From positions 62,001 to 126,000 of the forward strand of contig JAWPMN010000001.1 in the NCBI GenBank assembly GCA_033344895.1: 64,000 nucleotides of DNA. The letters are read 5' to 3'. Positions 34,821 to 57,908 of this stretch are shown here, piece after piece. The position numbers were made by a program, and so were the translations under genes. Within the stretch, counting starts at the first letter, position 1. Each line of letters starts with the position of its first letter. The DNA is from Alphaproteobacteria bacterium. Its GTDB lineage: Bacteria; Pseudomonadota; Alphaproteobacteria; UBA8366; Aestuariispiraceae. The notes beneath the pieces are model-generated. The model saw only the letters and a program-made list of their open reading frames with translations. It did not search any database and was not told the origin of the DNA.

Positions 34821-34833
34821 AGGGGAAGACCCG

Positions 34834-39847: not shown

Positions 39848-39850
39848 CTA

Positions 39851-39866
39851 TACCCATTTTTACCCA
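39851..39866. repeat. Tandem TACCCA motif, copy 1
   Basis: TACCCATTTTTACCCA lies 4 bp before the start of the minus-strand TIM-barrel gene. A 15-of-16 match lies at 40897-40912 in front of livH. Each copy holds two TGGGTA-like half-sites 10 bp apart, suggesting a shared protein-binding site. Confidence 0.5.
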
Positions 39867-39887: not shown

Positions 39888-40571
39888 TCAACCTTCCAGT
39901 AGAGCGCGGCGCACTTCCTCCAGATGCACGATCATCGCCTCGCGTGCGGCCCTGGGCGAACGACGCCGTACCGCGTCGATAATCGCGGCATGCTGCGCGA
40001 CATAGCGGGCCTTCAGATCACTCGAATAGGCATTTCGCTTGGCAGCCAGCCAATCCGCATTGTCGCGCATCGACCGCAGCATCTCATCGATCCGCTGAAC
40101 AAGTTGGTTATGCGTCATGGCAAAGATCAACTGATGGATCTGCGCGTCATAGCGCTCGAACTCTTCCATGACGCTGGTGTCTTCCGAGGCCGCCTGGGCT
40201 TCGAGGAGAAGCTCGATATCGGCATCGGTCGCATTTGCCGCAGCCGCAGCCGCCGCGGCCGGCTCGATCATCATGCGTGCCTCGATCAGATCCCGCGGGC
40301 TGATATCGGCCGGCAGGACGGTCCCCGTCGCGGCGAGCTGCGCCCCCTCCCCCGATGGAGACCGGGTAACGAAAGTACCCCGGCCGACCTGCCGCGTGAT
40401 GTGTCCGTCCGATTCCAGGGAATCCATGGCGCGGCGGATCGTGTTTCGGGCGACGCCAAACCGATCTGCCAGATCCCGCTCCGTTGGGAAACGCCCATCG
40501 GGCCCGAAGGCGCCGGATTCAATGTCCCGGCGCAGAACTTCGCGGATCCTGGTCGATACCGTATTACGCAC
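39888..40571 (-). CDS. GntR family regulator, FadR subfamily
   Basis: GTG 40571 preceded by AGGAAG gives 227 residues. The winged helix includes FPTERDLADRFGVARNTIRRAM and the wing HITRQVGRGTFVT (to about residue 70). The FCD effector domain follows, with its metal- or ligand-binding His residues in YDAQIHQLIF, YVAQHAAII and MIVHLEEV. It is divergent from the long liv-type operon and lies beside the operator cluster, so it most likely controls that operon and itself. Confidence 0.92.
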   Translation of the reverse strand: MRNTVSTRIREVLRRDIESGAFGPDGRFPTERDLADRFGVARNTIRRAMDSLESDGHITRQVGRGTFVTRSPSGEGAQLAATGTVLPADISPRDLIEARMMIEPAAAAAAAANATDADIELLLEAQAASEDTSVMEEFERYDAQIHQLIFAMTHNQLVQRIDEMLRSMRDNADWLAAKRNAYSSDLKARYVAQHAAIIDAVRRRSPRAAREAMIVHLEEVRRALLEG

Positions 40572-40606
40572 ACCTCTTCCTTTCCTGTCGGTCTAGGCGG
40601 AACAAT

Positions 40607-40724
40607 AGGATCAATTGGCTCAATAAAGCAACGAATTTGGCCGAACTCCCGAATCTTGATTGACAAAGGATCTATTGGCCCATCAATATTGAACCAATTG
40701 GTCCAGTCATTGGATCATTATAGG
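40607..40724. promoter_or_regulatory. Cluster of ATTGG sites, likely GntR operators with a promoter
   Basis: AGGATCAATTGGCTCAAT (40607-40624) and AGGATCTATTGGCCCATC (40667-40684) are exactly 60 bp apart. A perfect palindrome ACCAATTGGT (40693-40702) and ATTGGATC (40709-40716) follow. TTGACA at 40660-40665 with CAATAT about 18 bp later could be the forward promoter, overlapped by the second site. Confidence 0.6.
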
Positions 40725-40896
40725 CTGCTTCGGTCCAGAAAGCAGATAGTGTCACCCCAACATTTCGGTGAACGGGTGGCCAAGAACAGGGAGGTTTTGG
40801 CAGTGCCGGATAGGTTTTTCCCGGTTTTCCAGTTCACGACTCACCTTCCGTTGAGGAAGTCCGAGTCCAATGAATCAAATTTATGGCCGCAGATAT

Positions 40897-40912
40897 TACC
40901 CATTTTTTCCCA
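40897..40912. repeat. Tandem TACCCA motif, copy 2
   Basis: TACCCATTTTTTCCCA differs at one base from 39851-39866. It lies about 200 bp before livH within the leader region. Candidate site for the HTH regulator encoded at 37391. Confidence 0.5.
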
Positions 40913-41067
40913 TTTTGTCTTCGATCTCTGTTGCGGTCGTTTCGGGACACGATCAAGCTTGTCCTCAACCGTCGGATACAGACGGCGCGATGAAACATCG
41001 CAATCGAGAGCCGCCGAAGGCGCAAATGCGTCGACCGAATGCGGCCGCCAGGGAGGATACGCGTCGT

Positions 41068-41100
41068 ATGTCGCACCATAACGGCAAGCGGCTGCCATGA
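41068..41100 (+). CDS. Possible 10-residue leader peptide coupled to livH
   Basis: ATG 41068, 11 nt after AGGGAGG, opens a frame encoding MSHHNGKRLP whose TGA overlaps the livH ATG (ATGA, 41097-41100). livH itself has no ribosome site and no other in-frame start, because TAA lies at 41079-41081. Translation of this mini-ORF therefore probably delivers ribosomes to livH. Confidence 0.45.
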   Translation: MSHHNGKRLP

Positions 41101-42107
41101 GGCAGTTTATCGAACGCCACACATTCTGGGCGATCGTGATTCTTGTGATCGCGGCGGCTTTCCTGTGGATGATCTTCGCGGTCTGGCCGGACTGGATGGT
41201 TGATGCGATCGGCCGCAAGAAGACATTCGTGAACACCTTCCTCAACGGGATCACGCTCGGCGGTCTTTATTTCCTGGTCGCCAGCGGTTTCACGCTCGTC
41301 TTCGGGCTGATGCGCAACGTGAACCTCGCGCATGGTTCGATGTATCTGCTCGGCGCTTATATCGGCTACGAGGTCGCCGAGGCTACCGGCTCCTGGTTCC
41401 TGGGCCTCGCCGTTGCCTTTCTGGCCATCGCCGCAAGCGGCATACTGCTGCAGGTCCTGATTTTCCGCCGCATGGAAGGCGACGACCTGCGCCAGACCCT
41501 GGTCACGATCGGAATCTCGATCATCGCCGCGGACCTGATGCTCGCGATCTGGACCGGGACGACTTACCAGTTCGCACCGCCCGAATGGCTTTTCGGTGCA
41601 GCCACACTGCCCGTCGTCTCAGTCGTCAAATCCTCCGGCGACGCGGTCTTCATCAAATACCCGGTCTATCGCTTGGCCGTTCTTGCGGTGGCCGTCGCGG
41701 TCGGCATCGCCCTGTGGCTTTTCCTGAACCGCACCAGAATCGGCATGATGATCCGCGCCGGCGTGAACGATCGCGAGATGCTGGCCGCGTCGGGCGTGAA
41801 CGTTCAACTGGTATTCGCACTGGTGTTTGCCATCGGCGCGGGGCTCGCGGGATTCGCCGGTGTCATCGGCGGCACCGCCCTGTCCATCGCGCCGGGCGAG
41901 GACATCCGTTATCTGCTCGCGTCCCTGATCGTCGTGATCGTCGGCGGGCTCGGCTCAGTGACCGGGGCGGCCATCGGCGCGCTTCTGATCGGCCTGGCGG
42001 AGCAGTTCGGCCTCGCCTATTTCCCGACCTACGGCGTGGTCCTGACCTTCCTGATCATGGTCGTGACCCTGGCGGTCCGTCCGCAGGGCATCATGGGGGG
42101 ACGCTGA
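41097..42107 (+). CDS. Branched-chain-amino-acid-type ABC permease, LivH-like
   Basis: This 336-residue inner-membrane protein has about eight to nine helices. Family signatures are ITLGGLYFLVASGFTLVFGL, NVNLAHGSMYLLGAYIGYE and the ATPase-contact loop region GVNDREMLAASGVNVQL. It is longer at the N-terminus than E. coli LivH (308) by one extra helix. It is the first protein of the 12-gene operon. The HAAT family imports amino acids, amides, urea or aromatic acids, so the ligand is open. Confidence 0.92.
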   Translation: MRQFIERHTFWAIVILVIAAAFLWMIFAVWPDWMVDAIGRKKTFVNTFLNGITLGGLYFLVASGFTLVFGLMRNVNLAHGSMYLLGAYIGYEVAEATGSWFLGLAVAFLAIAASGILLQVLIFRRMEGDDLRQTLVTIGISIIAADLMLAIWTGTTYQFAPPEWLFGAATLPVVSVVKSSGDAVFIKYPVYRLAVLAVAVAVGIALWLFLNRTRIGMMIRAGVNDREMLAASGVNVQLVFALVFAIGAGLAGFAGVIGGTALSIAPGEDIRYLLASLIVVIVGGLGSVTGAAIGALLIGLAEQFGLAYFPTYGVVLTFLIMVVTLAVRPQGIMGGR

Positions 42108-42111
42108 GATC

Positions 42112-43176
42112 ATGGACACGCGGCGCCTCTTCTCCGGCGAGTTCTCCTTCAAGGACGTTCATCCGGCCAAACTGGCGGTGGCCGTTTTCCTGATCGCCTA
42201 TCCGACCTTTGCATCGGACTTCTTCACCTATCAGATCGGCGCCTATTCCCTGATCCTCGGCACAATCGCGCTGTCGCTGGTCATGCTGGCCGGCTACGGT
42301 GGCATGGTCAGTCTGGCACAGCTGACCGTTGCCGGTTTCGCCAGCTACATGATGGCCATCTTCGGCGACAACAGTGTCGGGGTCATGGGCCTTGGCTGGC
42401 CATGGTGGATCACCGCCCCCTTCGCAATCTTCATGGCCGCCCTGTTCAGCGCCTTCATCGGTGCGATTTCGGTCCGGACCGAAGGCATCTACACGATCAT
42501 GATCACGCTGGCGATCGCGGTCGCCTTCTTCTACTTCGTGCGCCAGAACTACGTCCTGTTCAACGGCTTCACCGGTTTCGCCGGTGTCGAGCCACCAACC
42601 CTGTTCGGGATCTACTGGCGTGATCCGGTGCCGTTCTACTATCTGACGCTGGTCATCTCGGCCGGCTTCTATGGCGCCATCGTCTATGCCGCGCGGGCCC
42701 CGTTCGGGCTCAGCCTGCAGGCAATCCGGGACAATCCGCGCCGAATGCGGGCGCTGGGCTATGACGTGACGCTGCACCGCGTCACCGCCTATTTCTTCTC
42801 CGGCATCATCGCGGGCACAGCGGGCGTGCTGATGGTCTGGTTCAACGGCCGGGTTTCCCCCGGATCCGTCGGCGTCGACGTCGCCATCGACATTCTGGTG
42901 ATTGCGGTGGTCGGTGGTCTGCGTCACCCGATCGGGCCCTTTCTCGGTGCCATCGCCTTTGTGCTTCTGGAAAACTTCGCCATCGATCTGATCGACCGCG
43001 AACGCTTCAACACCGTGATCGGGTTGGCGTTCCTGCTGGTCGTCCTGTTCTCGCCCGATGGCCTGTTGGGAATTTGGAACCGCCTGCGCGAGCGGGTTCG
43101 GTTCTCACGAAATGCGCAGCGATCGGCTGAACGCATGGCAAGAGACGACCGGCAGTCTGCCGGATCTCTCGAATAA
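42112..43176 (+). CDS. Branched-chain-amino-acid-type ABC permease, LivM-like
   Basis: This 354-residue protein has about nine helices. It has the LivM landmarks SLVMLAGYGGMVSLAQLTVAG, TEGIYTIMITLAIAVAFFYF, LQAIRDNPRRMRALGYDV (EAA-like loop) and VVGGLRHPIGPFLGAIAFVL. It starts 4 bp after the LivH-like stop and forms the second half of the translocation channel. Confidence 0.92.
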   Translation: MDTRRLFSGEFSFKDVHPAKLAVAVFLIAYPTFASDFFTYQIGAYSLILGTIALSLVMLAGYGGMVSLAQLTVAGFASYMMAIFGDNSVGVMGLGWPWWITAPFAIFMAALFSAFIGAISVRTEGIYTIMITLAIAVAFFYFVRQNYVLFNGFTGFAGVEPPTLFGIYWRDPVPFYYLTLVISAGFYGAIVYAARAPFGLSLQAIRDNPRRMRALGYDVTLHRVTAYFFSGIIAGTAGVLMVWFNGRVSPGSVGVDVAIDILVIAVVGGLRHPIGPFLGAIAFVLLENFAIDLIDRERFNTVIGLAFLLVVLFSPDGLLGIWNRLRERVRFSRNAQRSAERMARDDRQSAGSLE

Positions 43177-43202
43177 ACCTAGCAATAGGGAGGAAGGAAG
43201 AG

Positions 43203-44450
43203 ATGTTCGGTATTGGAAAGAAGGCGCTGGCCGCCGCGGCGGTCCTGTCGGTCGCCGGGCCGGCCATGGCGGAAGACACCGTCAAGATGGGGGCATTGGC
43301 AACGCTTGAGGGGGCGTTCACGGTCCTGGGTGAAGACGGCATGCGCGGCGTCAAGTTGGCGCTGGAAGAGTTCGGCTACACCGCAGGCGGCAAGAAGATC
43401 GAGCTGATCACCGGCTCTTCCGACGCCTCCCCCGACAGCGCGGTTCGCGCCGCCCGCAAGCTTGTGGAACAGGATGGCGTGGAAATCCTGGTTGGTCCTC
43501 TGTCCGGGTCGGAAGGCCTGGCCGTCAAGGATTACGCCAAGACGCAACCCGACGTCACCTTCCTGAACGGCTCCTCGGCCGCCCAGGACACGACGCTGCG
43601 CAATCCCTCGGACAACTTCTTCCGCTTCGGCACGGAAGGCGCCCAGTGGATGGCCGGCCTCGGCGAGTATGTCTATAATGAAAAAGGCTATCGCAAGGTC
43701 GCCGTCCTGGCGGAAGATTATTCCTTCCCCTACACGCAGGTCTTCGGCTTCCTGGAGCCGTTCTGCCGTCTGGGCGGCGAAGCGCCGGTGGATGCCCGCT
43801 ACTGGGTCCCGATCGGCAACAAGGACTATTCCTCGGTCATCGCGGCGCTGCCGGATGATGTTGACGCCATCTATGTCGCCCTCGGGGGCGCGGACGCGGT
43901 CAACTTCCTGACGCAATACGAACAGGCCGGTGGTGAACTGCCACTGATCGGAGGCTCAATCACGGTCGACCAGACGGTTCTGGGCTCCAAGGGACGCACC
44001 CGCGACTTCATCATCGGCACGCCGTCGGCGGGACCGATTTCGGACACCTGGGACGACCCGCGCTGGAACGCCTTCGTATCCGCCTACAAGGAACAGTTCC
44101 CGGACGGCTTCCCGTCCCCGTCGCTGTTTGCCCATGCCTACTACATCAACACCAAGGCCGCACTGCTGGCGCTTGAGGAAGTCGGCGGCGATCTGTCGGA
44201 CGGCGGCAAGAAGTACCGTGAAGCCCTGTCCAATCTGTCCTTCGAAACCCCGACGGGCATGGTATCGCTGGACGAACGCCGCAACGCGATTGCCGACATC
44301 TTCCTGACGGAGGTCATCGAAGGTCCGGAAGGCAACCTCGTCAACAAGACCATCAAGGTCATTCCGCAGGTCAGCCAGACCCTGGGCCTCTCCTACGAGA
44401 AGTTCCTGGAGTACGGTCAGGTCGGCCGCGACAACCCGAGCTGCGAATAA
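43203..44450 (+). CDS. Periplasmic binding protein, LivK/AmiC type
   Basis: This 415-residue protein has a signal peptide (to AMA-ED, about 24) and a type I periplasmic-binding fold: VKMGALATLEGAFTVLGEDG, ASPDSAVRAARKLVEQDGV, LVGPLSGSEGLAVKDYA. The start has AGGAGG upstream and is well expressed by context. The lack of the SGA/ALG amino-acid contact wording of LivJ suggests a non-canonical ligand. It delivers to the LivHM-like permeases. Confidence 0.92.
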   Translation: MFGIGKKALAAAAVLSVAGPAMAEDTVKMGALATLEGAFTVLGEDGMRGVKLALEEFGYTAGGKKIELITGSSDASPDSAVRAARKLVEQDGVEILVGPLSGSEGLAVKDYAKTQPDVTFLNGSSAAQDTTLRNPSDNFFRFGTEGAQWMAGLGEYVYNEKGYRKVAVLAEDYSFPYTQVFGFLEPFCRLGGEAPVDARYWVPIGNKDYSSVIAALPDDVDAIYVALGGADAVNFLTQYEQAGGELPLIGGSITVDQTVLGSKGRTRDFIIGTPSAGPISDTWDDPRWNAFVSAYKEQFPDGFPSPSLFAHAYYINTKAALLALEEVGGDLSDGGKKYREALSNLSFETPTGMVSLDERRNAIADIFLTEVIEGPEGNLVNKTIKVIPQVSQTLGLSYEKFLEYGQVGRDNPSCE

Positions 44451-44464
44451 GCCCGTAGTCGGGG

Positions 44465-45265
44465 ATGGATACGATGCCGATAGCCAAGACCGACGCCCTT
44501 TCCCGCCTTCAAAGCGCCGGACGCTATGCGCTGGAGCTTGAAGCCGTCAGCCGCCATTTCGGCGCGCTGGTAGCACTGGCCGACATCAACATGACGGTCA
44601 GGGCCGGGGAGCGGCGTGCGGTTCTGGGATCGAACGGGGCCGGCAAGACCACCCTGTTCAACGCGATCACGGGGGATTTCCCCCCGACCACCGGCCGTGT
44701 CCGCCTGTTCGGTGAGGACGTGACGGATCTGCCCGCCCATGAGCGGATTCGTCGCGGCCTGCGCCGCACCTATCAGATTTCCCTGCTGTTTCATGGGCTC
44801 AGCGTCATAGACAACATTTATCTCGCCTGTCGCGGGGTCGGCCGAGGCCGTTTCTCCCTGTGGCGGCCCAAGCGGGACGACGCGACGATGCAGATGGCCG
44901 AAACCCTGTTGGCGGCGGTCCATCTGGAGGCGGTGCGCGAGACGCAGGTGGCGACCCTCAGCTATGGCCAGCAGCGCCAGCTGGAGATCGCCCTTGCGCT
45001 CGCGGGCGCCCCGCGTCTGATCCTGTTCGACGAGCCGGCGGCCGGCCTGTCCCCGACAGAACGGACGGAGTTGATCGAAATCCTCCAGTCGCTGCCGGAC
45101 CACATCGGATACATCATCATCGAACACGACATGGATGTGGCACTGCGCGTGTCCGAAAGCGTGACCATGATGCACAACGGACGCATCTTCAAGGAAGGCA
45201 CCCCTGCCGAGATCGAGAGCGATCCGGAAGTCCAGGAACTCTATCTGGGGCAAGGTCATGGCTGA
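44465..45265 (+). CDS. ABC ATPase, LivG-like
   Basis: This protein has 266 residues (263 if it starts at ATG 44474, which has better ribosome-site spacing). Walker A is GSNGAGKTT, the signature is the variant LSYGQQRQLEIA typical of LivG, Walker B is LILFDEPAAGL and the switch His is in IIIEHDMDV. The C-terminal end is HNGRIFKEGTPAEIESDPEVQELYLG split by family custom. Its last 8 bp overlap the LivF-UPF0261 fusion gene. Confidence 0.93.
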   Translation: MDTMPIAKTDALSRLQSAGRYALELEAVSRHFGALVALADINMTVRAGERRAVLGSNGAGKTTLFNAITGDFPPTTGRVRLFGEDVTDLPAHERIRRGLRRTYQISLLFHGLSVIDNIYLACRGVGRGRFSLWRPKRDDATMQMAETLLAAVHLEAVRETQVATLSYGQQRQLEIALALAGAPRLILFDEPAAGLSPTERTELIEILQSLPDHIGYIIIEHDMDVALRVSESVTMMHNGRIFKEGTPAEIESDPEVQELYLGQGHG

Positions 45266-47519
45266 CCGGAACCGAAACCGCCCCAGTGCTTCCGAGGTCC
45301 TTCAGATCCGCGACCTGCACGTCTATTACGGCCAATCTCACGCGTTGCAGGGTGTCGATCTGACACTGGAGCACGGCGTCCATTCCGTGGTCGGGCGCAA
45401 CGGCATGGGCAAGACGACCCTGTGCAATGCGATCATGGGCCTGCAGCCGGCGCGGCGCGGTTCCATCCGGTTCAAGGGCGAGGAACTGATCGGCCAGCAG
45501 CCCTACAAGATCGCCGGCAAAGGCGTCGGCTACACACCGCAGGGCCGCCGGCTTTGGCCGTCCCTGACCGTCGACGAGCACTTGCGTCTGGCCGATACCG
45601 GCAGCGGCGCCTGGACCATCGATCGGATCTACGACACCTTCCCGCGCCTTGCCGAACGACGCCGCAATGGCGGTGGTCAGCTGTCCGGCGGCGAACAGCA
45701 GATGCTGGCGATCTCCCGCGCGTTGCTGCAGGACCCGCAACTGCTGGTCCTGGACGAGCCGACCGAGGGCCTCGCCCCCGTCATCGTCGATCACGTCGAG
45801 CAACTGCTGTCGACCCTCGCCGAGGAAAGCGATGTCGCGATCCTGCTGATCGAACAGAACATCTCGGTCGCGACGTCGATCTCGGAAGATGTCGCGATCA
45901 TGGTAAACGGCCGGATCAGCCGCGTCATGCCGGCAAAGCAGTTGGCCAATGATCGTGCGTTGCAGGAACGCCTGCTGGGTGTCGGCCGCCATTCCCACGA
46001 CGATATGGAAGTCGACGTTCCGGCTTACGAACCGCCGCAGGACGCGCCCGCCGAACCGGAACATCCGGCAGAAGCCGCGACACCGAAAGACGACGCGGCC
46101 GAAAAACCGAAAAGCTTCGTCTATGTGCCGCCGACCCGCTGGTCCAGCGCCGGCTGGAAGGAAGACAAGGCCGCAACCGCGCCGGTAACAAAACCGGCCA
46201 ATCCGCCAACCCGCCCCTTCGATGCCGCGCCCGAACCGATTTATCGCGAGAAGCCGACCGCGCTCGACGCACTGCGCGGCGATGATGTGCTGGTTGTCGG
46301 GACCTTCGACACCAAGGGTGCGGAACTGCGATACATCCGGGACTGCATTGCAGAACAGGGGCTGCGCATTCGCACGGTCGACCTTTCCACATCCGGAAAG
46401 CCTTCGTCCGCGGACATTCCCCCGCATGTCATCGCGGCCTATCACCCACGCGGGACCACCGGCGTCTTTTCCGGAGACCGTGGCGCCTCTGTCCGCGCGA
46501 TGGCCGAGGCGTTCGAGAGATGGATCGTCCGGCAGCACGGAATTGGCGGCATCATATCGGCGGCCGGATCCGGCGGGACCGCCCTTGCCACGCCGGCGAT
46601 GCGGCGCCTTCCGATCGGCATTCCGAAAGTGATGATCTCCACCATCGCATCCGGCGATGTCGGCCAGTATGTCGGCCCATCCGACATCATGATGATGTAC
46701 CCGGTGACCGATGTGCAGGGCCTGAACCGCATTTCCAGACAGGTTCTGCGCAATGGGGCGACGGCGCTGGCCGGCATGGTCCGCCATGCGCAGGTCAAGA
46801 AGACACAGAAAGCCGACAAACCGGGCCTGGGCCTGACCATGTTCGGCGTCACGACGACAGCCATCCAGCAGATATCCGAGCAACTGGAAGACAGCTATGA
46901 CTGCCTCATATTCCACGCCACCGGCGTCGGGGGCCGCTCGATGGAGAAACTGGCCGACAGCGGGCTTTTGTCCGCGGCTGTCGATCTGACCACGACCGAA
47001 ATATGCGACATGATGTTCGATGGGGTCTTTGCGGCTGATGAAGACCGGTTCGGCGCCTTCATCCGAACCCGTATTCCTTATGTCGGCTCTGTCGGCGCCC
47101 TGGACATGGTGAATTTCCGCGCGCCCGAAACTGTGCCGGAGAAATACGCATCCCGAACCTTCGTCGAACACAATCCTCAGGTCACGCTGATGCGCACCAC
47201 GGCGGAGGAAAACGCGAGGATGGGCACCTGGATCGCCGAGCGGCTGAACCAGATGACCGGTCCGGTACGCTTCCTGATCCCTGAAGGGGGCGTGTCGGCT
47301 TTGGATGCGCCAGGACAGCCCTTCCATGACCCGGAAGCCGACAAGGCCCTGTTCGACGCCATTACCCGAACCTTCCGGGAAGAAGGGAACCGGCGGCTGA
47401 TCCGCCTGCCCCATCACATAAACGATCCGGCCTTCGCCACGGCGACGGTCGAAGCCCTGAACGACATCAATCCGATACGGAATGCAACGGAGAGGACGGC
47501 CCGCCATGCCGCGATTTGA
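45258..47519 (+). CDS. LivF-type ABC ATPase fused to UPF0261/Tm-1-like domain
   Basis: This 753-residue protein has a complete LivF ATPase at residues 1 to about 243 (Walker A GRNGMGKT 46-53, signature LSGGE 142-146, Walker B LLVLDEP 162-168). A Pro/Glu/Ala-rich linker spans about 245-338. A UPF0261 domain spans about 342-745, starting [16 protein letters not shown] with Gly-rich [44 protein letters not shown] and [18 protein letters not shown]. In tomato Tm-1 this domain is joined to a TIM barrel of the kind encoded by the next gene, which overlaps this one by 14 bp. Fusion to a transporter ATPase would tether that unknown chemistry to import. Confidence 0.93.
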
Positions 47520-48339
47520 ACGAAAAGACCTTCTGGCGAAGTTTCAGGACATGAAAGCGCGGGGCGAGCCGATCGTCGGCGGGGGCGCCGGGACGGGCCT
47601 GTCCGCGAAATGCGAGGAAGCGGGCGGGATCGACCTGATCGTGATCTATAATTCCGGGCGCTACCGGATGGCCGGACGCGGATCGCTGTCCGGACTGATG
47701 GCCTATGGCAATGCCAACGAGGTCGTCATGGAAATGGCGCATGAGGTCCTGCCGGTCACAAAGAAGACTCCGGTCCTTGCGGGGGTCAACGGCACCGACC
47801 CGTTCTGCATCTTCGATCACTACCTGGACCAGGTGAAGGCAATCGGCTTTTCCGGCATTCAGAACTTTCCGACCGTCGGTCTGATTGACGGGACGTTCCG
47901 GGCCAATCTGGAAGAAACCGGCATGTCCTACGGCCAGGAGGTCGACATGATCCGCATGGCCCATGAAAAGGACATGTTCACAACGCCCTATGTCTTCAAC
48001 GAAGACGACGCCAAGGCGATGGCGAGCGCCGGTGCGGACATCGTCGTCTGCCATCTCGGCCTGACGACGGGAGGCTCGATCGGCGCGGAAACGGCGCTGA
48101 AGCTGGAGGACTGCCCTGCCCTGGTGAATTCCTGGGCCGAGGCCGCCCTGTCCGTGAACCCGGATGTCTTGGTCCTGGTCCATGGCGGCCCGGTCGCCAT
48201 GCCGGCGGACGCCGAATATGTCCTGAAGAACACCGACAACTGCCACGGGTTCTACGGCGCCTCCTCCATGGAACGGCTGCCGACGGAAAAGGCACTGACC
48301 GAACAGACAAAAGCGTTCAAAGCGCTGCGAACGGGCTGA
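47506..48339 (+). CDS. TIM-barrel protein of the phosphoenolpyruvate-hydrolase family (Tm-1 C-terminal type)
   Basis: ATG 47506 gives 277 residues. The barrel begins [20 protein letters not shown] with [17 protein letters not shown], then [27 protein letters not shown] and [15 protein letters not shown], ending with the phosphate-site-like [14 protein letters not shown]. In many bacteria this gene neighbours UPF0261; in plants the two are one protein. Reaction unproven. It is translationally coupled to the fusion gene and has two diverged paralogues at 37391 and 39152. Confidence 0.88.
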
Positions 48340-48356
48340 TAGGGAGGATTGAGACC

Positions 48357-50426
48357 ATGACGACCGGCCTGATCGGATCCATCATTCTCTGGCTGATCAT
48401 CGCGATCATCGCGATTGTGGTGATCGTTTATCTGTTGAACTGGCTCTACCACCGTTCGACGAAGGAAGTCGCCTTCGTGCGCACCGGCTTCGGCGGCGAG
48501 ACCGTGGTGATAAACGGCGGGGCTTTGGTCCTGCCGATCATTCACGAGGTGACGCCCGTCAACCTGAACGTCGTGCGCATTCCAGTCGCCCGAAAGGAAG
48601 ACAGCGCGGTCATTACCAAAGACCGAATGCGGGTTGATATCGAGGCCGAATTCTTCGTCCGCGTCATTCAGAAGCCCGATGCCGTCGCGGCCGCCGCCTC
48701 CACTCTGGGCCGGCGCACCATGGACCGTGACAGCCTGGCGGACCTGCTGAACGGGAAGTTTGTCGGCGCCCTGCGCTCCGTCGCGGCGGAGATGACGCTG
48801 GACGAGATGCATGAGAAGCGCGGCGACTTCGTCTCCATCGTCGAAAACCGGGCTGCCGAAGCCCTGGCTCGCAACGGGCTGGAGCTGGAATCCGTCGCCA
48901 TCACCGACCTGGACCAGACGGACCTGGAATACTTCAACCCTGCCAACCGCTTCGATGCCGAAGGTCTGACGCAGTTGATCGAGACCATCGAGTCGCGCCG
49001 CAAGCTGCGCAACGATATCGAGCAATCGTCGATGCTGGCCATCCGCAGCCGCAATCTGGAGGCGGAAAAGGAAACCCTGAAGCTGGAGCAGGAAAGCGAA
49101 AGCTCCCGCCTGGATCAGGAACGGGCGCTGGAGGCGCTGCGCGCGGCCCAGCGGATGGAGGTCGTCCGCGATCGCGTCGCCCGCGAGGCGGAGGCCGAGA
49201 AATCCCGGATCGCCAGCGAGCGCGAGACCCGGGAGTTCGACATCGAACGTCGCCGTGCGCTGGAGGAAATCGAAATCCGCGCCCAGCAGCAGATCGAAGC
49301 CGCCCGCATCGCCCAGGAAGAGGCGTTGGAACAGGCGCGCATCGACCGGGAAAAGCAGATCCGCACCCTGCAGATCAAGCAGCGGCACGAGGTCGAGACG
49401 GCGGAAATCGCGTCCTCTGAGGATGTCGAGCGCGCCAAGATCGTGTCCGAACGGCAATTGCGGGAAGCCCGCATCGCGGCGGATGAGGAGACCGAAGCGC
49501 GTGAAATCGCCCGCGGTCAGCAACTGGAGACGGCCCGCATAGCCGCCACGAAATCGGTCGAATCCGCCCGGATCGCCCAGGAGCAGATCCTCGACAAGGC
49601 CCGGATCGAACGCGACCGCCTGTTGCGCGCGCAGCAGATTGCGCAGCGGCAGTCGCTGGAGGAAACCGAGATTTCCGCCAATGAGGAAATCGAACGGGCC
49701 CGCATTGCATCCAACCGCGGCCTGGAAGAAGCCCGAATCCTGCAGGACCGGGACCTGAAGCGTCTGGAAATCGAACGCGCGATGGCTCTGGAGCTTGCGG
49801 ATATCGAGCGGGAAATCGCCCGTCTGCGCAAGCAATCGGAAGAGGCCGATGTGCGGACCACGACCGAGGCAGCCCGCGCCGAAGCCGTCGCGGCAGAGGA
49901 GAAGGTCGCTACAGTCCGCGAGCGGGAAATCGCCGAACGTGTTGCCGCTGTCGACAGGTTGCTGGCGCAGAAAAATGCCGATGCTGCGGTTATCGCGGCC
50001 GAAGCGGACAAGATCTCCGCAGCGGTGGCAGCGGAAGCCGAACGCCTGCGCAACGAAGCCGAAAACGTACTCAGCGAAGACGCCCGTGCCGGCCGAATCC
50101 GCTCGAAGATGATCGACCGCCTGGAAGGCATCGTGCGCGAGAGCGTCAAGCCCATGGAGAAGATCGACGGCATCAAGATCCTGCATGTCGACGGTCTGAC
50201 CGGGCATGGCGGAGATGGCGGTCATCGCTCCCCCACCGACGAGGTGATCGAGAGCGCATTGCGCTATCGCGCCCAGGCCCCGCTGATTGACGAAATGATG
50301 AAGGAAATCGGCGTCGAGAATGCCGGTGTCGCCAAGATGGGGGACATCTTCCGCTCCGCCAAGGACGCGCAGTCCCTGGCCAAGGAAGCCCAGGCATCCA
50401 AGAAGAAAAAGGATGACGACGCATGA
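48357..50426 (+). CDS. Giant flotillin-like SPFH protein with 20 tandem 11-residue repeats
   Basis: This 689-residue protein has a membrane helix at about 8-28, an SPFH/band 7 domain at about 35-200 (KEVAFVRTGFGGETVVINGG, DRMRVDIEAEFFVRV) and then a very long charged helix. Residues 274-493 are 20 uninterrupted 11-residue units of the type IAQEEALEQAR. It ends in an Ala/Glu-rich region (to about 570) and a cytoplasmic C-terminal domain with a Lys-rich tail. It probably assembles as a YqiK/flotillin-type cage at the inner membrane. Inside a transporter-catabolic operon its role may be scaffolding. Confidence 0.9.
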   Translation: MTTGLIGSIILWLIIAIIAIVVIVYLLNWLYHRSTKEVAFVRTGFGGETVVINGGALVLPIIHEVTPVNLNVVRIPVARKEDSAVITKDRMRVDIEAEFFVRVIQKPDAVAAAASTLGRRTMDRDSLADLLNGKFVGALRSVAAEMTLDEMHEKRGDFVSIVENRAAEALARNGLELESVAITDLDQTDLEYFNPANRFDAEGLTQLIETIESRRKLRNDIEQSSMLAIRSRNLEAEKETLKLEQESESSRLDQERALEALRAAQRMEVVRDRVAREAEAEKSRIASERETREFDIERRRALEEIEIRAQQQIEAARIAQEEALEQARIDREKQIRTLQIKQRHEVETAEIASSEDVERAKIVSERQLREARIAADEETEAREIARGQQLETARIAATKSVESARIAQEQILDKARIERDRLLRAQQIAQRQSLEETEISANEEIERARIASNRGLEEARILQDRDLKRLEIERAMALELADIEREIARLRKQSEEADVRTTTEAARAEAVAAEEKVATVREREIAERVAAVDRLLAQKNADAAVIAAEADKISAAVAAEAERLRNEAENVLSEDARAGRIRSKMIDRLEGIVRESVKPMEKIDGIKILHVDGLTGHGGDGGHRSPTDEVIESALRYRAQAPLIDEMMKEIGVENAGVAKMGDIFRSAKDAQSLAKEAQASKKKKDDDA
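49176..49835 (+). repeat. 20 tandem hendecad-coding units (33 bp each)
   Basis: Within the flotillin-like gene, Ile (Val in unit 1) recurs at residues 274, 285, 296 and every 11 thereafter up to 483, with Leu/Val/Ile commonly at unit position 7 and Ala at position 10. The period never slips over 220 residues. The DNA copies are diverged, so this is an old protein repeat and not a recent satellite. Confidence 0.92.
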
Positions 50427-50860
50427 CCGAGGTCTATGCATCTTCCGTCATCGGCGCACCTGCGGACCAGGTCTGGGCGGCGATCCGCGACTTCAACAGC
50501 CTGCCTTCCTGGCATCCAGCCATTGCGGAGAGCCGTATCGAAGGCGGCGCCCCGGCGGATCAGGTCGGCTGCGTCCGGGCCTTCCGCCTGAAGGACGGCG
50601 GTTTCATCCGCGAGAAGCTGCTGGCTCTGTCGGACTATGACTTCGCCTGCACCTATTCGATCCTGGAAAGCCCGATGGGTGTCGAGAATTACGTCGCGAC
50701 CCTGAAGCTGTCGCCGATCACCGATGGCGGGCGCACCTTCGCGGAATGGTCGGCGGAGTTCGACTGCGCCCCGGAGCGGGCAGGAGAACTTACCGATCTG
50801 ATCGGCAACGGCGTGTTCCAGGGCGGGTTCAACGCGCTGAAGGAACGCTTCGGGGGCTGA
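50423..50860 (+). CDS. SRPBCC (Bet v 1-like) protein
   Basis: This 145-residue protein overlaps the upstream stop as ATGA. The helix-grip fold is indicated by ASSVIGAPADQVWAAIRDFN at the start, WHPAIAES, a central strand series and a long C-terminal helix (IGNGVFQGGFNALKERF). Such proteins bind hydrophobic or aromatic ligands, and some are cyclases or START-type carriers. It is clearly a paralogue of the N-terminal domain of the next protein. The ligand may be the imported compound (inference). Confidence 0.88.
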   Translation: MTEVYASSVIGAPADQVWAAIRDFNSLPSWHPAIAESRIEGGAPADQVGCVRAFRLKDGGFIREKLLALSDYDFACTYSILESPMGVENYVATLKLSPITDGGRTFAEWSAEFDCAPERAGELTDLIGNGVFQGGFNALKERFGG

Positions 50861-50864
50861 TGCC

Positions 50865-52346
50865 ATGGTCGCCGTGCGACGCAGCACCATTATCGACGCC
50901 CCAATCGCGGCGGTCTGGGAAGTCCTGCGCGACTTCAACGGCCATGACCGCTGGCATCCGGCTGTCCGGCGCAGCGACCTCGAAGAAGGTCGCCGCACGG
51001 ACCAGATCGGTGCCGTCCGCAATTTCACCCTGGAATCAGGCGACCGCATCCGCGAACGGCTGCTGTCCCTGTCCGACAAGGACAAGCGATTGCGCTACTG
51101 CATCGTCGATGCCGATGTACCGCTGCAGAACTATGTCGCCGAAATCGCCTTGAAACCGGTCACGGACGGCAACCGCACCTTCTGGTCCTGGACGTCTAGT
51201 TTCGGCACGCCGAAGGGCCGCGAGAACGAATTGGCAAAGCTGGTCGCCGAGGGCGTTTATGAAGCCGGGTTCGATGCCGTGCGTGACCGTGTGGAATCCG
51301 CAACGATCAAGTCCCCTGCTGTCCCCGCAATTGCGTCCGGCGCGGCCTTACCGGGCTGTGCCATGATGATCGATCGGCATGGCGGACCGGAAGAACTCCA
51401 TATGCGGGACATCAGCGCCCCGCCCCCGGGACCCGGTCAGGTCCGTCTGCGCCAGACGGCAATCGGGGTCAACTTTATCGATGTCTATTGCCGCAGCGGC
51501 TATTTCGACCTCCTGGAGCCGCCGGGCGCCCCCGGGATGGAAGCGGCCGGCGTCGTGGATGCCGTCGGCCCGGATATACGCCACCTGAAACCGGGCCAGC
51601 GCGTCGGCTATGCCTGCGCACCGGTCGGAGCCTACGCCACCGTGCGTACCATGGACGCGGCCTCGGTCGTTCCCCTGCCGGACTTCCTGGACGACCGGCA
51701 GGCCGCCGCGATCCTGCTGAAGGGGATGAGCGCGGAGTTCCTGCTGCACCGGGTCCATCCAGTCCGCACGGGCGAGACGGTGCTGATCTACGCCCCGGCC
51801 GGCGGCATCGGGCAACTGCTCTGTCGCTGGGCGAACCGGCTTGGGGCGACCGTGATCGGCGCGACCAGCAGCGAGGAAAAGGCGCGGATCGCACGAGCGG
51901 CCGGTGCCCATCACGTCATTTTACCGGGCCGCGACAGTCTCGAAAAGCAAGTGCGGGACCTGACCCGGGGACGGGGCGTCGACGTGATCTATGACGCCGT
52001 CGGTCGTGATACGTTCGATCATTCCGTCGCCGCGCTGGCAAATTGCGGGCATCTGGTCAGCTTCGGCCAGGCGTCAGGCGATATCGGCCCCCGGGACATC
52101 AGCGCCCTGGCCGGCCGATCCGTAACCCTGTCGCGGCCAAATTTCGGCCATTACACCGATACGCCGGCCAAGATCGCGGCCATAACCGGCCGCCTGTTCG
52201 ACGCCCTGCGCAACGGCGTTCTTCGCGTTGATATCGGGCGCACCCTGCCCCTCAGCGCCGCGGCGGAGGCGCACCGAGCCCTCGAAAGCCGGGAGACGAC
52301 CGGCGCCACTATTCTGATCCCCGACGATCTGTACGAGAAAGGATAA
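50865..52346 (+). CDS. SRPBCC domain fused to zinc-independent quinone oxidoreductase (MDR)
   Basis: This 493-residue protein has residues 1 to about 145 as an SRPBCC domain (STIIDAPIAAVWEVLRDFN, RWHPAV). Residues about 165-493 are an MDR of the QOR type: GVNFIDVYCRSGYFDLLEPP, GMEAAGVVDAVGPD, NADPH Rossmann loop IYAPAGGIGQLLCRWANRLG, and no structural zinc cysteines. It should reduce a quinone or enone, with the SRPBCC part possibly presenting the ligand. It starts 4 bp after the single-domain paralogue. Confidence 0.9.
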   Translation: MVAVRRSTIIDAPIAAVWEVLRDFNGHDRWHPAVRRSDLEEGRRTDQIGAVRNFTLESGDRIRERLLSLSDKDKRLRYCIVDADVPLQNYVAEIALKPVTDGNRTFWSWTSSFGTPKGRENELAKLVAEGVYEAGFDAVRDRVESATIKSPAVPAIASGAALPGCAMMIDRHGGPEELHMRDISAPPPGPGQVRLRQTAIGVNFIDVYCRSGYFDLLEPPGAPGMEAAGVVDAVGPDIRHLKPGQRVGYACAPVGAYATVRTMDAASVVPLPDFLDDRQAAAILLKGMSAEFLLHRVHPVRTGETVLIYAPAGGIGQLLCRWANRLGATVIGATSSEEKARIARAAGAHHVILPGRDSLEKQVRDLTRGRGVDVIYDAVGRDTFDHSVAALANCGHLVSFGQASGDIGPRDISALAGRSVTLSRPNFGHYTDTPAKIAAITGRLFDALRNGVLRVDIGRTLPLSAAAEAHRALESRETTGATILIPDDLYEKG

Positions 52347-52351
52347 GACGT

Positions 52352-53218
52352 ATGAAACTGGCCACCTTCGATTGGAACGGGGAACGTCATGTCGGCCGCG
52401 TATCGGACGATGGCGGGACGATTACGCGCTTGGACCTGCCGGCCGGTGCCGCCGACCGGGACGGCGTTGCCGCCCTGATCGGATCGGACATGCCCGGCGA
52501 TGCGGAGAGCTTGTCCGTTTCGGACATCAAACTGGTCGCGCCGGTGCCGCGTCCCCATCGCAACATCTTCTGCGTCGGGAAGAACTACTTCGAACACGCC
52601 CATGAATTCGCCTCTTCCGGCTTCGACAGCAGCGCCGCCAAGGGCGCGGTGCCGGAAGCGCCCATTGTCTTCTCCAAACTGCCGGAAAGCGTGATCCCGC
52701 ACGAAGCCGCCGTGAAAGTCGATGCCGGCGTCACCACCGCAGTCGACTATGAGGCTGAACTGGCCGTGATCATCGGCAAGGGCGGGCGCAACATTTCCAA
52801 GGAAGACGCGCTTTCCCATGTCTGGGGCTATACCATCGTCAACGACGTGACCGCCCGCGACCTGCAGGGCCTGCACAGTCAATGGCTGATCGGAAAATCG
52901 CAGGACACCTTCTGCCCGATGGGCCCGGTGGCGGTCACCGCCGACGAGATCAACCTGGAAGACACGGCGGTCCGGTGCTGGGTCAATGGCGAACTGCGCC
53001 AGGATTCCAACACCAAGCTGCTGATCTTCGATGTACCGACGATCATCGCAGCAATTTCGAACGGCATCACCCTGATGCCCGGTGACGTGATCGCCACCGG
53101 CACGCCCGCCGGTGTCGGGATCGGCTTCAAGCCGCCGAAATATCTGACGCCCGGAGACACGGTGCGTGTCGAGATCGCCGGAATCGGCATCCTGGAAAAC
53201 CCGGTGGAGGCCTATTGA
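52352..53218 (+). CDS. Fumarylacetoacetate-hydrolase-family enzyme
   Basis: This 288-residue protein has the FAH fold: FCVGKNYFEHAHEF, VDYEAELAVIIGKGG (metal-binding acidic residues), YTIVNDVTARDLQ and GDVIATGTPAGVGIGFKPP. Family members hydrolyse C-C bonds of acylpyruvates, decarboxylate oxaloacetate or hydrate 2-oxopent-4-enoates, using Mg or Mn. It starts 5 bp after the QOR-fusion gene. In this operon it may handle a ring-opened intermediate (inference). Confidence 0.9.
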   Translation: MKLATFDWNGERHVGRVSDDGGTITRLDLPAGAADRDGVAALIGSDMPGDAESLSVSDIKLVAPVPRPHRNIFCVGKNYFEHAHEFASSGFDSSAAKGAVPEAPIVFSKLPESVIPHEAAVKVDAGVTTAVDYEAELAVIIGKGGRNISKEDALSHVWGYTIVNDVTARDLQGLHSQWLIGKSQDTFCPMGPVAVTADEINLEDTAVRCWVNGELRQDSNTKLLIFDVPTIIAAISNGITLMPGDVIATGTPAGVGIGFKPPKYLTPGDTVRVEIAGIGILENPVEAY

Positions 53219-53220
53219 TC

Positions 53221-53997
53221 ATGACGGAGGTCCGGTTGGGCAGCATGATCGCGGAACGCTGCGGCAAGGGCCCTACCGTGGTGATGATCCACGGTCTGGG
53301 CGGCACGTCAAACACGTTCCAGCCCCAGATAAGCGCGCTGGAAGGATTCGACATCCTGCGCCCCGACCTGCCCGGCGCGGGGCGGTCGGCGCTACGCCCC
53401 GGCAAGCCGGGCCTGAAGGCGATGGCGCAGGACGTGAAGGAAATGATGCGTGCGGCCGGGATTTCCCGGGCCCATCTGGTCGGGCATTCCATGGGCACGT
53501 TGATCTGTCAGTATCTCGCGGCCGACCGCGACTTTCAGGCCCTCAGCCTGACCCTATTCGGTGCCATTCTGGAACCGCCGGAAGCCGCGCGTGCCGGGTT
53601 GAAGGACCGGGCCGTCTCCGCACGCCGGGACGGAATGACCAGCATTGCCGACGCCGTTTCCCAGGCAAGTGTCTCCGTCGCATCCCGCAAAGCGAACCCG
53701 GTTGTCCCGGCCTTCGTGCGCGAAAGCCTGATGCGTCAGGACCCCGCCGGTTACGCCGCCCATTGCGAGGCGTTGAGCGGCGCCCAGGCGGCGAACCACG
53801 CCGCGATCGCCTGCCCGACACTGATGATTGCGGGCAGCGACGACCCGGTCGCGCCGGTTGCGATGGCGCAGGAGTTGAAGCGCCGCATCACCGGCGCAAC
53901 GGTCGAGACCCTTTCCGGGATCGGTCACTGGATGACAATGGAAGACCCGCAACGGTCGGCGGACCTGTTGCGGCAACATTTGGACGCGGCCGCGTAA
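53221..53997 (+). CDS. Alpha/beta hydrolase (PcaD/enol-lactonase-like)
   Basis: ATG 53221 lies 2 bp after the FAH-family stop and gives 258 residues. The oxyanion segment is MIHGLGGTSNTF, nucleophile S90 is in LVGHSMGTL, the Asp is in GSDDPVAP and the His in GIGHWMTMED. Wording resembles 3-oxoadipate enol-lactonase and related C-C or ester hydrolases. It is cytoplasmic, with no signal peptide, and probably hydrolyses an ester, lactone or beta-diketone of the same pathway. Confidence 0.9.
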   Translation: MTEVRLGSMIAERCGKGPTVVMIHGLGGTSNTFQPQISALEGFDILRPDLPGAGRSALRPGKPGLKAMAQDVKEMMRAAGISRAHLVGHSMGTLICQYLAADRDFQALSLTLFGAILEPPEAARAGLKDRAVSARRDGMTSIADAVSQASVSVASRKANPVVPAFVRESLMRQDPAGYAAHCEALSGAQAANHAAIACPTLMIAGSDDPVAPVAMAQELKRRITGATVETLSGIGHWMTMEDPQRSADLLRQHLDAAA

Positions 53998-54027
53998 AAG
54001 AACGGCCGCCACGAAGGGAGAGAAACC

Positions 54028-55371
54028 ATGGCTGACAACAGTTTCGGAGGCTGGGGCGGATCCGGCGGCGGCGCGCCGCGCAACCCGGAGATCGTCTTCA
54101 GCAATGTCCGCATTCTGGACGGCACCGGCGAGAAGCCCTATTCGGGCGAGGTCACCGTTTCGGGCAACCGGATCAAGTCGATCTCGCGATCCGGCGCCGG
54201 CGGTTTCGGTTGGAACAGCCAGAGCAATGGCGGCACTCAGCGCATCGACGGTCGGGGCATGACCCTGATGCCCGGCCTGATCGACGCACATCTGCATCTC
54301 AGCTGGAACAATGCGCCAGGCATCAACCCGATCCAGATGATGCCGGTCGAGGAGCACATGCTGAACTGCGTCTATATGGCGAAGCTGCTGCTGGATGCCG
54401 GGTTTACGGCCGGATATGGCGCGGCAGCCGCAAAGCCGCGCCTGGACGTGGTAATCCGCGACGCCATCCGGGCGGGCAAGGTGCCGGGGCCGCGCTACAC
54501 CGCCGCCGGTCCGGAGCTGACGTCAGTCGGCGGGCTGGGCGATGCGTCCCTGCCGCATATCCCGCATGAAGGTTTGAACCTGGGTATCGTGGTTTCCGGG
54601 CCGGAAGACATGCGTCGCAAGGTACGGGAACTGATGAAATGGGGCGTCGACACGATCAAGATCAACCTGTCCGGTGAGGAAATCACCGGCATGGGCGCCG
54701 AGGAAAACCAGTTCAGCGACGAGGAAATCCGCGTCGCGGTCGAGGAAGCGAAGGGTCGTCACCGCCGTCTCGCAGCCCATGCCCGGTCCAAGGAATCCAT
54801 TCAGCGCTGCGTGAAATTCGGCATCGACATCATCTACCACGCCTCCTTCACCGACGAACAGACGCTCGACATGCTGGAGGCCAACAAGGACAAGCATTTC
54901 GTGGCACCCGGCCTCGCCTGGCTGATCAACACGGCGCGCAACGCCGCAGAATACGGCATCAAGCCCGGCACGCCGATGACCGAAGCCTACGAACGGGAAC
55001 TGGAACACGCGGTCGAATCCATGCGCAAGATGCGCGAACGCGGGATTCGGGTCCTGATCGGCGGAGACTACGGTTTCGCGTGGACACCGCACGGCACGAA
55101 CGCGAAGGACCTGGAATACTTCGTGGATCTGGTCGGCATGTCCCCGATCGAGGCGATCCAGGCCGGCACCAAGCTGGGCGGCGAGATCATGGGCATGGGC
55201 CATGAACTCGGCATGATCAAGGAAGGCTATCTGGCGGACATGCTGTTGGTCGACGGAGATCCCAGCACGGATGTGCGCGTCCTCCAGGACCACAAACGCA
55301 TTGTGGCAATCATGCAGGACGGCGCCTTTCACAAGGCGCCGTCCGCACAAACCGTTGGGATGAGGTACTAG
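54028..55371 (+). CDS. Metal-dependent amidohydrolase
   Basis: This 447-residue cytoplasmic protein has a Gly-rich N-terminal tail (NSFGGWGGSGGGAPRN). The amidohydrolase barrel has HxH at H88/H90 in GLIDAHLHLSW, a likely carboxylated Lys in TIKINLSGEE, His residues in RLAAHARS and IIYHASF, and Asp in LIGGDYGFAW. It resembles the prolidase-like/imidazolonepropionase-like branch, often dinuclear Zn. It should hydrolyse an amide, imide or lactam. It is the last gene of the operon, 30 bp after the hydrolase and convergent with ridA. Confidence 0.9.
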   Translation: MADNSFGGWGGSGGGAPRNPEIVFSNVRILDGTGEKPYSGEVTVSGNRIKSISRSGAGGFGWNSQSNGGTQRIDGRGMTLMPGLIDAHLHLSWNNAPGINPIQMMPVEEHMLNCVYMAKLLLDAGFTAGYGAAAAKPRLDVVIRDAIRAGKVPGPRYTAAGPELTSVGGLGDASLPHIPHEGLNLGIVVSGPEDMRRKVRELMKWGVDTIKINLSGEEITGMGAEENQFSDEEIRVAVEEAKGRHRRLAAHARSKESIQRCVKFGIDIIYHASFTDEQTLDMLEANKDKHFVAPGLAWLINTARNAAEYGIKPGTPMTEAYERELEHAVESMRKMRERGIRVLIGGDYGFAWTPHGTNAKDLEYFVDLVGMSPIEAIQAGTKLGGEIMGMGHELGMIKEGYLADMLLVDGDPSTDVRVLQDHKRIVAIMQDGAFHKAPSAQTVGMRY

Positions 55372-55730: not shown

Positions 55731-55750
55731 TGGGGTTTCCTCATTTTGGG

Positions 55751-57876: not shown

Positions 57877-57908
57877 GGCGATACGAACTTTCGCTTTTGA
57901 GACATGTA

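Follow-up and report, generated by a model that had tools for sequence, protein, structure and literature searches.

Gene content and layout of the locus

The window analysed here is a stretch of 64,000 nucleotides from the genome of an Alphaproteobacteria bacterium of the Aestuariispiraceae (GenBank assembly GCA_033344895.1, contig JAWPMN010000001.1, positions 62,001 to 126,000), which consists of one contig of 4.64 Mb. Window positions 41097-55371 hold a run of 12 open reading frames (ORFs), all on the plus strand, that encode a complete Liv-type importer (a cluster of two permeases, a binding protein and two ATPases), with a UPF0261 domain joined to the ATPase LivF, followed by a TIM-barrel enzyme (TIM), a flotillin of the SPFH family, an SRPBCC protein, a fusion of a second SRPBCC domain to a medium-chain dehydrogenase/reductase (MDR), and three hydrolases (Table 1). 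This gene set is a conserved and widespread catabolic operon type of Alpha-, Beta- and Gammaproteobacteria, and its hallmark is the importer ATPase fused to UPF0261.

The run is real. An earlier note on this DNA had described 12 plus-strand genes with small gaps and overlaps, and the ORF list of the window reproduces that layout exactly: the gaps are 4, 26, 14, 17, 4, 5 and 30 bp and the overlaps 8, 14, 4 and 4 bp, the overlap of 14 bp holding only if the TIM gene uses its second ATG (47506) and growing to 38 bp from the first. The single family assignments of that note are likewise borne out by Pfam, which confirms a family for every one of the 12 ORFs: BPD_transp_2 for both permeases, Peripla_BP_6, ABC_tran, and ABC_tran with UPF0261 N and C for the importer genes, then PF09370, Band_7 with Flot, Polyketide_cyc2, Polyketide_cyc2 with a zinc-type dehydrogenase, FAA_hydrolase, Abhydrolase_1 and Amidohydro_1. 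A single transcription unit is predicted from the gene layout. Between 40400 and 55700, terminator-like sites (11 found, 11.3 expected) and promoter-like sites (1 found, 2.7 expected) occur at chance level.

Table 1. Features of the operon and its regulatory region, in window coordinates.
Feature	Position	Strand	Basis
RegTIM: PF09370 TIM-barrel, degenerate AAA region (AAA-lid) and Fis-type helix-turn-helix (HTH); predicted activator	37391..39148	+	ORF, Pfam
TIM2: partial PF09370 (half barrel), RegTIM partner	39152..39847	-	Pfam
TTACCCA-N3-TTACCCA site, 1 mismatch, directly before TIM2 start	39850..39866	+	pattern scan
GntR/FCD-family regulator	39888..40571	-	ORF, Pfam
TTACCCA-N3-TTACCCA site, 1 mismatch, 184 bp before LivH	40896..40912	+	alignment, pattern scan
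LivH-type permease	41097..42107	+	ORF, Pfam
LivM-type permease	42112..43176	+	ORF, Pfam
LivK-type periplasmic binding protein	43203..44450	+	ORF, Pfam, PDB matches
LivG-type ATPase	44465..45265	+	ORF, Pfam
LivF~UPF0261 fusion: N-terminal ABC ATPase, linker, UPF0261 aa 343-736	45258..47519	+	Pfam, structure match
TIM-barrel enzyme PF09370 (phosphoenolpyruvate (PEP) hydrolase-like)	47506..48339; first ATG 47482	+	ORF, Pfam
Flotillin (Band_7 + Flot)	48357..50426	+	Pfam
SRPBCC protein 1 (SRP1)	50423..50860	+	Pfam, predicted structure
SRPBCC2~MDR fusion (SRP2; NADPH:quinone reductase-like, QOR)	50865..52346	+	Pfam
FAH-family hydrolase	52352..53218	+	Pfam
Alpha/beta hydrolase (ABH), PcaD-like, under the PcaD model cut-off	53215..53997	+	family scan
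Amidohydrolase-family metallohydrolase (AMH)	54028..55371	+	family scan

Conservation of the gene set

Among genomes sampled from the class, 53 of 386 contain UPF0261_C, as do 46 of 397 in a phylum sample, 44 of the latter above the cut-off. An open frame of at least 765 aa, the size of the fusion, surrounds the domain in 20 of the 53 class genomes. At least 529 relatives were confirmed, the best 80 of which are titled Alpha-, Beta- and Gammaproteobacteria. Because the loci were picked by similarity (the best 80 of these, plus samples), the counts given here do not reflect frequencies in the population. Carriers of the set include Mesorhizobium, Azospirillum, Variovorax, Ramlibacter, Sneathiella and Hwanghaeella. 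A tblastn search with the window proteins showed it to be collinear with the window in Hwanghaeella, Denitrobaculum, Sneathiella and Pelagibius, and placed the three hydrolase genes (FAH, ABH and AMH) before LivH in Mesorhizobium, Azospirillum, Marivibrio and Ramlibacter; the annotation of Variovorax has the same order. Among 231 plasmid records matching the SRPBCC~MDR protein, one (Variovorax) covers the complete protein to at least 80%.

Retention of the set in relatives, even in another order, indicates more than chance, and the kept membership argues for a shared function. Co-inheritance is thus well supported. The earlier note had proposed one import-and-catabolism unit and had named conservation confined to close relatives as the finding that would speak against it; the set instead spans three classes, and its conserved co-occurrence, also with altered order, backs the proposal. 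The literature searched also yields no description of a system with the full set, as the note had supposed. Its picture of 12 genes stands, and to it are added a regulator pair with its site, a second version of the operon and a possible kinase role of UPF0261, all of which it had omitted.

Two versions of the operon can be distinguished. Assessable loci with the fusion (assessable meaning that the upstream end of the frame is closed and that at least 3.5 kb of sequence follows it) number 84, comprising 48 of type I, 31 of type II and 5 assigned to neither. Type I, to which the window belongs, ends in the reductase and three hydrolases; type II has a molybdenum-hydroxylase set instead. Counted on the same strand within 11.5 kb, where contig ends lower some numbers, the 48 type I loci contain LivK in 48, LivG in 48, LivM in 47, LivH in 45, SPFH in 48, SRP1, SRP2 and QOR in 48 each, AMH in 46, ABH in 44, TIM in 38, FAH in 34 and RegTIM in 12. 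The 31 type II loci contain LivK in 28, LivH, LivM, LivG, SPFH, SRP1 and SRP2 in 31 each and TIM in 30; the counts for the paralogues SRP1 and SRP2 partly include one as the other, as scored by tblastn. Their enzyme genes encode an FAD subunit (31), a 2Fe-2S subunit (31) and parts 1 (31) and 2 (30) of the molybdenum subunit, accompanied by MoxR (30), AraC (29), an iron alcohol dehydrogenase (18) and aldehyde dehydrogenase (4); RegTIM was found in none.

Family scans of type II representatives revealed a molybdenum hydroxylase with a split large subunit, an AraC regulator and an aldehyde dehydrogenase. The iron alcohol dehydrogenase is nearest to the 4-hydroxybutyrate dehydrogenase model, below its cut-off. 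In one record, from Yoonia, the type II operon continues with genes for a fuconolactonase-like amidohydrolase, a lactonase-like protein, an isochorismatase-family protein, a short-chain dehydrogenase/reductase (SDR) and FAH. One type II operon nested among proteobacterial ones comes from a record labelled Bacillota (L156 in our numbering of loci, titled Oceanobacillus sp. HTM 045), and contamination or mislabelling is likely in that case.

Linkage of the flotillin to the LivF~UPF0261 fusion

The UPF0261 domain was located at 148 distinct places, which were called near at 45% identity or more. Among near loci with the fusion, a flotillin is present in 83 of the 84 assessable and in 5 of 8 non-assessable ones (3 without). 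Near loci with a separate UPF0261 carry a flotillin in 1 of 20 assessable (19 without) and in 1 of 11 non-assessable cases (10 without), and far UPF0261 genes in 1 of 25 (24 without), the 21 assessable ones all being without. The only assessable fused locus that lacks a flotillin is L150; elsewhere in its genome (L234), away from LivF~UPF0261, a TIM gene and an SPFH gene lie together, which is a split version of the operon. A contrary case is L196 (Mesorhizobium sp. AR07), in which a flotillin is present and UPF0261 and LivF occupy separate frames.

A quick tree was built from 106 of 149 rows, after near-copies, most far rows and cut rows had been dropped. All 74 fused rows fall within one group of 80 rows (Shimodaira-Hasegawa-like approximate likelihood ratio test, SH-aLRT, 95), the other 6 rows of which are unfused, and the type I/II split amounts to one change among rows of known type; 35 of the 103 inner branches are open and the far rows are long. 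In 39 relatives including the window's own genome, each of the nine genomes whose frame has the size of the fusion carries a flotillin at the operon place, and a relative with a separate UPF0261 (G030) has none. The proposal that the flotillin belongs to the pathway is supported as far as membership in the system goes, and by linkage only.

The closest known counterparts of the operon flotillin are flotillins of the YqiK kind, with which it shares Band_7 and Flot; over residues 30-293 it has about 46% identity to proteins of Escherichia and Salmonella. It differs in its longer frame: the nine operon copies measure 728-819 aa, and the ten other copies in the relatives 557-618 aa, apart from one of 199. 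No solved PDB chain matches the flotillin sequence at E 1e-5.

A different flotillin cluster is found on plasmids of Martelella sp. AD-3 (L245) and Hoeflea sp. IMCC20628 (L246). It combines a sugar-type ABC importer, a rhodopsin gene, a flotillin, two hypothetical proteins and an iron alcohol dehydrogenase near an AttM-type lactonase, with a semialdehyde dehydrogenase as well in Martelella, and is a further example, after the operon, of a flotillin placed among genes for import and catabolism.

The importer and its UPF0261 domain

The importer shares LivHMKGF with the Liv (HAAT) family of ABC importers and differs in the C-terminal UPF0261 domain of LivF. Branched-chain amino acid import as the default function was rejected, as LivK and LivF score far below the NCBIfam cut-offs for amino-acid transporters. 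The PDB matches of LivK include 4ey3, 4eyg, 4eyk and 4evq, presumably aromatic-acid complexes; the best match, 4zpj, is uninformative on the ligand.

The UPF0261 domain, for which NCBI uses names such as 'Tm-1-like ATP-binding', contains the N and C domains with the Tm-1 fold. Its predicted model (predicted local distance difference test, pLDDT, 88.7) matches tomato Tm-1 and PDB 9mpy, which according to the entry title is Saro_1862, a UPF0261 domain protein of Novosphingobium aromaticivorans, with acetovanillone bound. Of the 91 columns that do not vary among 41 sequences, 57 have the same residue in 9mpy. In the same organism, acetovanillone catabolism is reported to start with MarK, a single-component kinase (PMC13101465). 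Taken together, the acetovanillone-bound structure and the MarK kinase suggest, as the best lead, that the domain phosphorylates a phenolic or enol hydroxyl, and we infer from this distant similarity that UPF0261 may be a substrate kinase. With Saro_1862 the domain shares its family and an aromatic-monomer catabolism context; in the window it is also accompanied by a flotillin and SRPBCC proteins.

Tomato Tm-1 and plant Tm-1L carry the same two domains, UPF0261 and PF09370, in one chain, and the UPF0261 part is 37-41% identical to Tm-1 chains. In the operon, however, the domains lie in two genes and UPF0261 is joined to the ABC ATPase instead. The known role reported for plant Tm-1 is virus inhibition, and the UPF0261/PF09370 pair has been recorded in land plants and fungi as well as in bacteria and archaea (PMC5028733). 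Literature searched for the function of UPF0261, PF09370 or Tm-1-like proteins gave nothing informative.

The Hpe/Acv hydroxyphenylethanone pathways provide a further comparison. There, too, an aromatic compound is phosphorylated before its breakdown, and in the Hpe pathway phosphorylation has been proposed to keep a hydrophobic substrate inside the cell (Dexter et al., PMC9618137). We hypothesise that a kinase tethered to the importer ATPase could trap its substrate in this way at the point of entry. However, the Hpe/Acv kinase is described as an ATP-grasp and swivel-His type, followed by a biotin carboxylase and a phosphatase. Membership of the operon in the acetovanillone Hpe/Acv route was rejected because neither this kinase type nor the carboxylase or phosphatase is among the 12 genes, to which the search was confined.

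The TIM-barrel partner

The window's genome contains three PF09370 matches, all in this locus. The operon TIM keeps K43, Y56 and H191 in 103 or 104 of 106 sequences. The 10 type I loci without a TIM gene in the operon comprise nine titled Mesorhizobium and one Hyphomicrobiales metagenome-assembled genome (MAG; L160), and runs of N do not explain the missing gene in those inspected. A search of 14 genomes for PF09370 was positive in 13, including all 11 of Mesorhizobium (the nine with TIM-less operons, L194 and L196). In all nine places retrieved, the Mesorhizobium PF09370 gene lies beside a second UPF0261 gene. This agrees with the published co-occurrence of the two families: of 504 genomes with the TIM domain, 491 are reported to have UPF0261 as well (PMC5028733).

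Regulators and the TTACCCA repeat

RegTIM combines a PF09370 domain with a Fis-type HTH (PF02954, 1.6e-12). Compared with TIM enzymes, the RegTIM domains (n = 25) have mostly lost the residues conserved in the operon enzyme, with K43 replaced by L in 15, Y56 by I or L in 24 and H191 by N in 23, and have retained D51, R62, N128 and E153 in about 24 each. RegTIM thus looks like an altered copy of the operon TIM that serves as a sensor, its ligand site kept and catalysis lost.

A repeat, TTACCCA-N3-TTACCCA, accompanies this regulator. With at most one mismatch, 19 of the 23 distinct loci with RegTIM contain it, and 0 of the 124 loci that lack the regulator; the reversed pattern gave 2 of 23 and 0 of 124, and four other control patterns gave 0 and 0. 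With at most two mismatches the counts are 22 of 23 and 0 of 124, against 6 and 4 for the reversed pattern and 0-1 and 1-6 for the other controls. Duplicates among the 23 loci were removed by hand, and the window is not among them. The repeat was discovered in 14 aligned type I upstream regions, including the window, so that the counts are partly circular for these. Seven distant RegTIM loci outside the alignment (L069, L098, L163, L168, L201, L203, L204) have it in three cases with at most one mismatch and in six with at most two. The RegTIM loci are mutually related, and a Fisher value for the linkage is no true probability. Where LivH is the nearest start the repeat lies 110-280 bp upstream, and several loci have it closer to TIM2, which is itself found in 22 of the 23 RegTIM loci (some as weak matches, 27-33% identity) and in 0 of the 124 others.

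The link between regulator and repeat is well supported by these sequence comparisons. The window's genome has two sites with at most one mismatch (39850 and 40896), both at the locus. The reversed pattern also has two matches there, so the number of sites is uninformative and their position is the evidence. Two loci labelled regulator-less and kept outside the 124, L239 and L244, have the repeat with two mismatches; the annotation of L244 includes a sigma-54-type Fis regulator, and the genome of L239 has a further long PF09370 frame. On plasmid pNGR234a (L204) the repeat stands with one mismatch before sugar-importer genes (3876-3892) and before UPF0261 (8886-8902), and on pMLa (L244) with two mismatches before UPF0261 (4543). 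As the repeat thus precedes both a sugar importer and UPF0261-TIM pairs, on plasmids of rhizobia that also encode a RegTIM-like regulator, the switch is not confined to this operon.

Sigma-54 control was considered and rejected: the GAFTGA and Walker A patterns are both missing from the window RegTIM and the -24/-12 pattern is unmatched in 40561-41100; among 21 RegTIM relatives scanned, L163 and L168 have GAFTGA and L098 has a Walker A-like match. A putative sigma-70-like TTGCGG-18-AAGCTT after the repeat was read by eye, and the one site of the promoter scan lies elsewhere.

FAD-linked oxidase and acyl-CoA dehydrogenase genes lie at 33357-36621, upstream of the regulator region. On the minus strand at 55380-60199, a separate cluster encodes a RidA-family protein, a DAO-type FAD oxidoreductase, a histone-deacetylase-family hydrolase, a BKACE protein and a class III aminotransferase, and resembles an amine or amino-acid catabolic set.

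Proposed mechanism and alternatives

We propose that the operon serves to import and degrade a small compound, probably one that is cyclic and enolisable or phenolic, and consider this reading, with its steps as follows, to stand at about even chances. From what is known of the families, LivK would capture the compound and LivHMGF would move it over the inner membrane. UPF0261, tethered by its linker to the importer ATPase, might phosphorylate the arriving compound and thereby trap and activate it, as the kinase lead suggests, and the TIM-barrel enzyme would then work on the phosphorylated product. SRP1 and SRP2 could bind a hydrophobic intermediate and pass it to the fused MDR reductase, after which the FAH-family hydrolase, the alpha/beta hydrolase and the amidohydrolase may finish, in one order or another, the opening of the ring or side chain. 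The flotillin would keep importer and enzymes at one membrane site. RegTIM, linked to the repeat before the operon, would bind there and activate transcription, together with TIM2 or modulated by it. More tentatively, and at rather less than even chances, the operon may represent a group-translocation-like ABC importer, with a kinase on the importer ATPase, a dedicated flotillin that gathers importer, kinase, TIM and carriers, and a transcription factor that senses an intermediate through a retired enzyme copy.

Several observations weigh against this proposal. UPF0261 is only 31% identical to 9mpy, with a TM-score of about 0.58, and the identity of MarK with Saro_1862 is itself only inferred. 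MarK is a single-component enzyme, whereas UPF0261 here is fused to LivF and mostly partnered with TIM. The carboxylase, phosphatase and CoA ligase of acetovanillone routes are not among the 12 genes, nor is an oxygenase, an unusual lack if the operon were a common aerobic pathway for aromatics. UPF0261-TIM pairs of other loci are neighbours of sugar importers, a Gfo/Idh oxidoreductase and a cupin protein. Ten of the 48 type I loci and one of the 31 type II loci have no TIM gene in cis, and PF09370 was found nowhere in the MAG of one type II locus (L159). RegTIM was seen in no more than 12 of the 48 type I loci and in none of the 31 of type II. The link between fusion and flotillin comprises only four independent contrasts, which all point in the same direction and fall short of significance (p 0.125).

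UPF0261 and TIM might alternatively form an ATP-dependent pair that opens a ring or cleaves a C-C bond in a non-aromatic cyclic carbonyl compound such as a lactone or lactam, with no phosphorylation coupled to import. ATP would activate the ring, TIM would cleave it and the fusion would only fix stoichiometry. The presence of three hydrolases and no oxygenase fits this explanation, as do the genes for lactonase-like proteins in the single type II operon that was traced further downstream (Yoonia) and the pairs beside sugar importers and Gfo/Idh oxidoreductases. We nevertheless regard it as unlikely, because the sole small-molecule ligand in the titles of the matched UPF0261 structures is a phenolic ketone, the pathway of which begins with a kinase.

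The SRPBCC proteins may be seen mainly as CoxG-like anchors that, with the flotillin, hold soluble oxidoreductases to the membrane or quinone pool, their partners being the MDR reductase in type I and the molybdenum hydroxylase in type II. CoxG and CoxG-like proteins are reported in the literature to hold dehydrogenases at the membrane. Type II resembles aerobic CO dehydrogenase with CoxG and the four-component 3-hydroxypyridine dehydrogenase in setting SRPBCC genes by split molybdenum-hydroxylase genes, with MoxR and VWA, and the FAD, 2Fe-2S and first molybdenum subunits are each present in all 31 loci. Type I differs from these systems in having an MDR reductase instead, and to our knowledge neither the importer fusion nor a flotillin is part of them. 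The SRPBCC proteins that were scanned (SRP1 and SRP2 of the window and one type II SRP2) all match Polyketide_cyc2 and not the CoxG family in Pfam, and an assignment to CoxG proper was rejected on this ground. The SRP1 model (pLDDT 96.1) has its nearest matches in XoxI and further bacterial proteins of unknown function, followed by plant abscisic-acid receptors, which fits the binding of a small hydrophobic ligand. An anchoring role seems to us not very probable.

That the flotillin is a bystander or a general stress gene, co-transcribed by chance, appears improbable. Flotillins do occur outside the system, in 8 of 29 relatives without UPF0261 and as a second copy in two genomes of the window's genus with a fusion-sized frame (G001 and G004). 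However, the linkage in 83 of 84 assessable fused loci persists over two cassettes and changed gene orders, and the window's genome has a single flotillin (its only PF15975 match) and yielded no NfeD match in a search that was positive in 11 of 14 control genomes. An NfeD-family partner is usual for bacterial flotillins. Finally, a regulatory instead of a metabolic role of UPF0261-TIM, suggested by the older domain name 'TIM-barrel signal transduction' and by the PF09370 domain fused to a Fis HTH next door, is very improbable, given that the operon TIM keeps the K43, Y56 and H191 mostly lost in the regulator and that UPF0261-TIM accompanies importers and enzymes in most of the annotated examples inspected, with Vibrio casei as an exception.

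Significance

The little-known UPF0261/PF09370 pair gains a testable setting in this operon, where it is seen together with an importer, with a regulator for which a DNA site is predicted, and with either of two enzyme cassettes. Because the flotillin is tied to one metabolic pathway, the role of such a flotillin becomes directly testable. If the kinase reading is true, the operon would encode an ABC importer with built-in substrate phosphorylation, and a metabolic role could be offered for relatives of the plant virus-resistance protein Tm-1.

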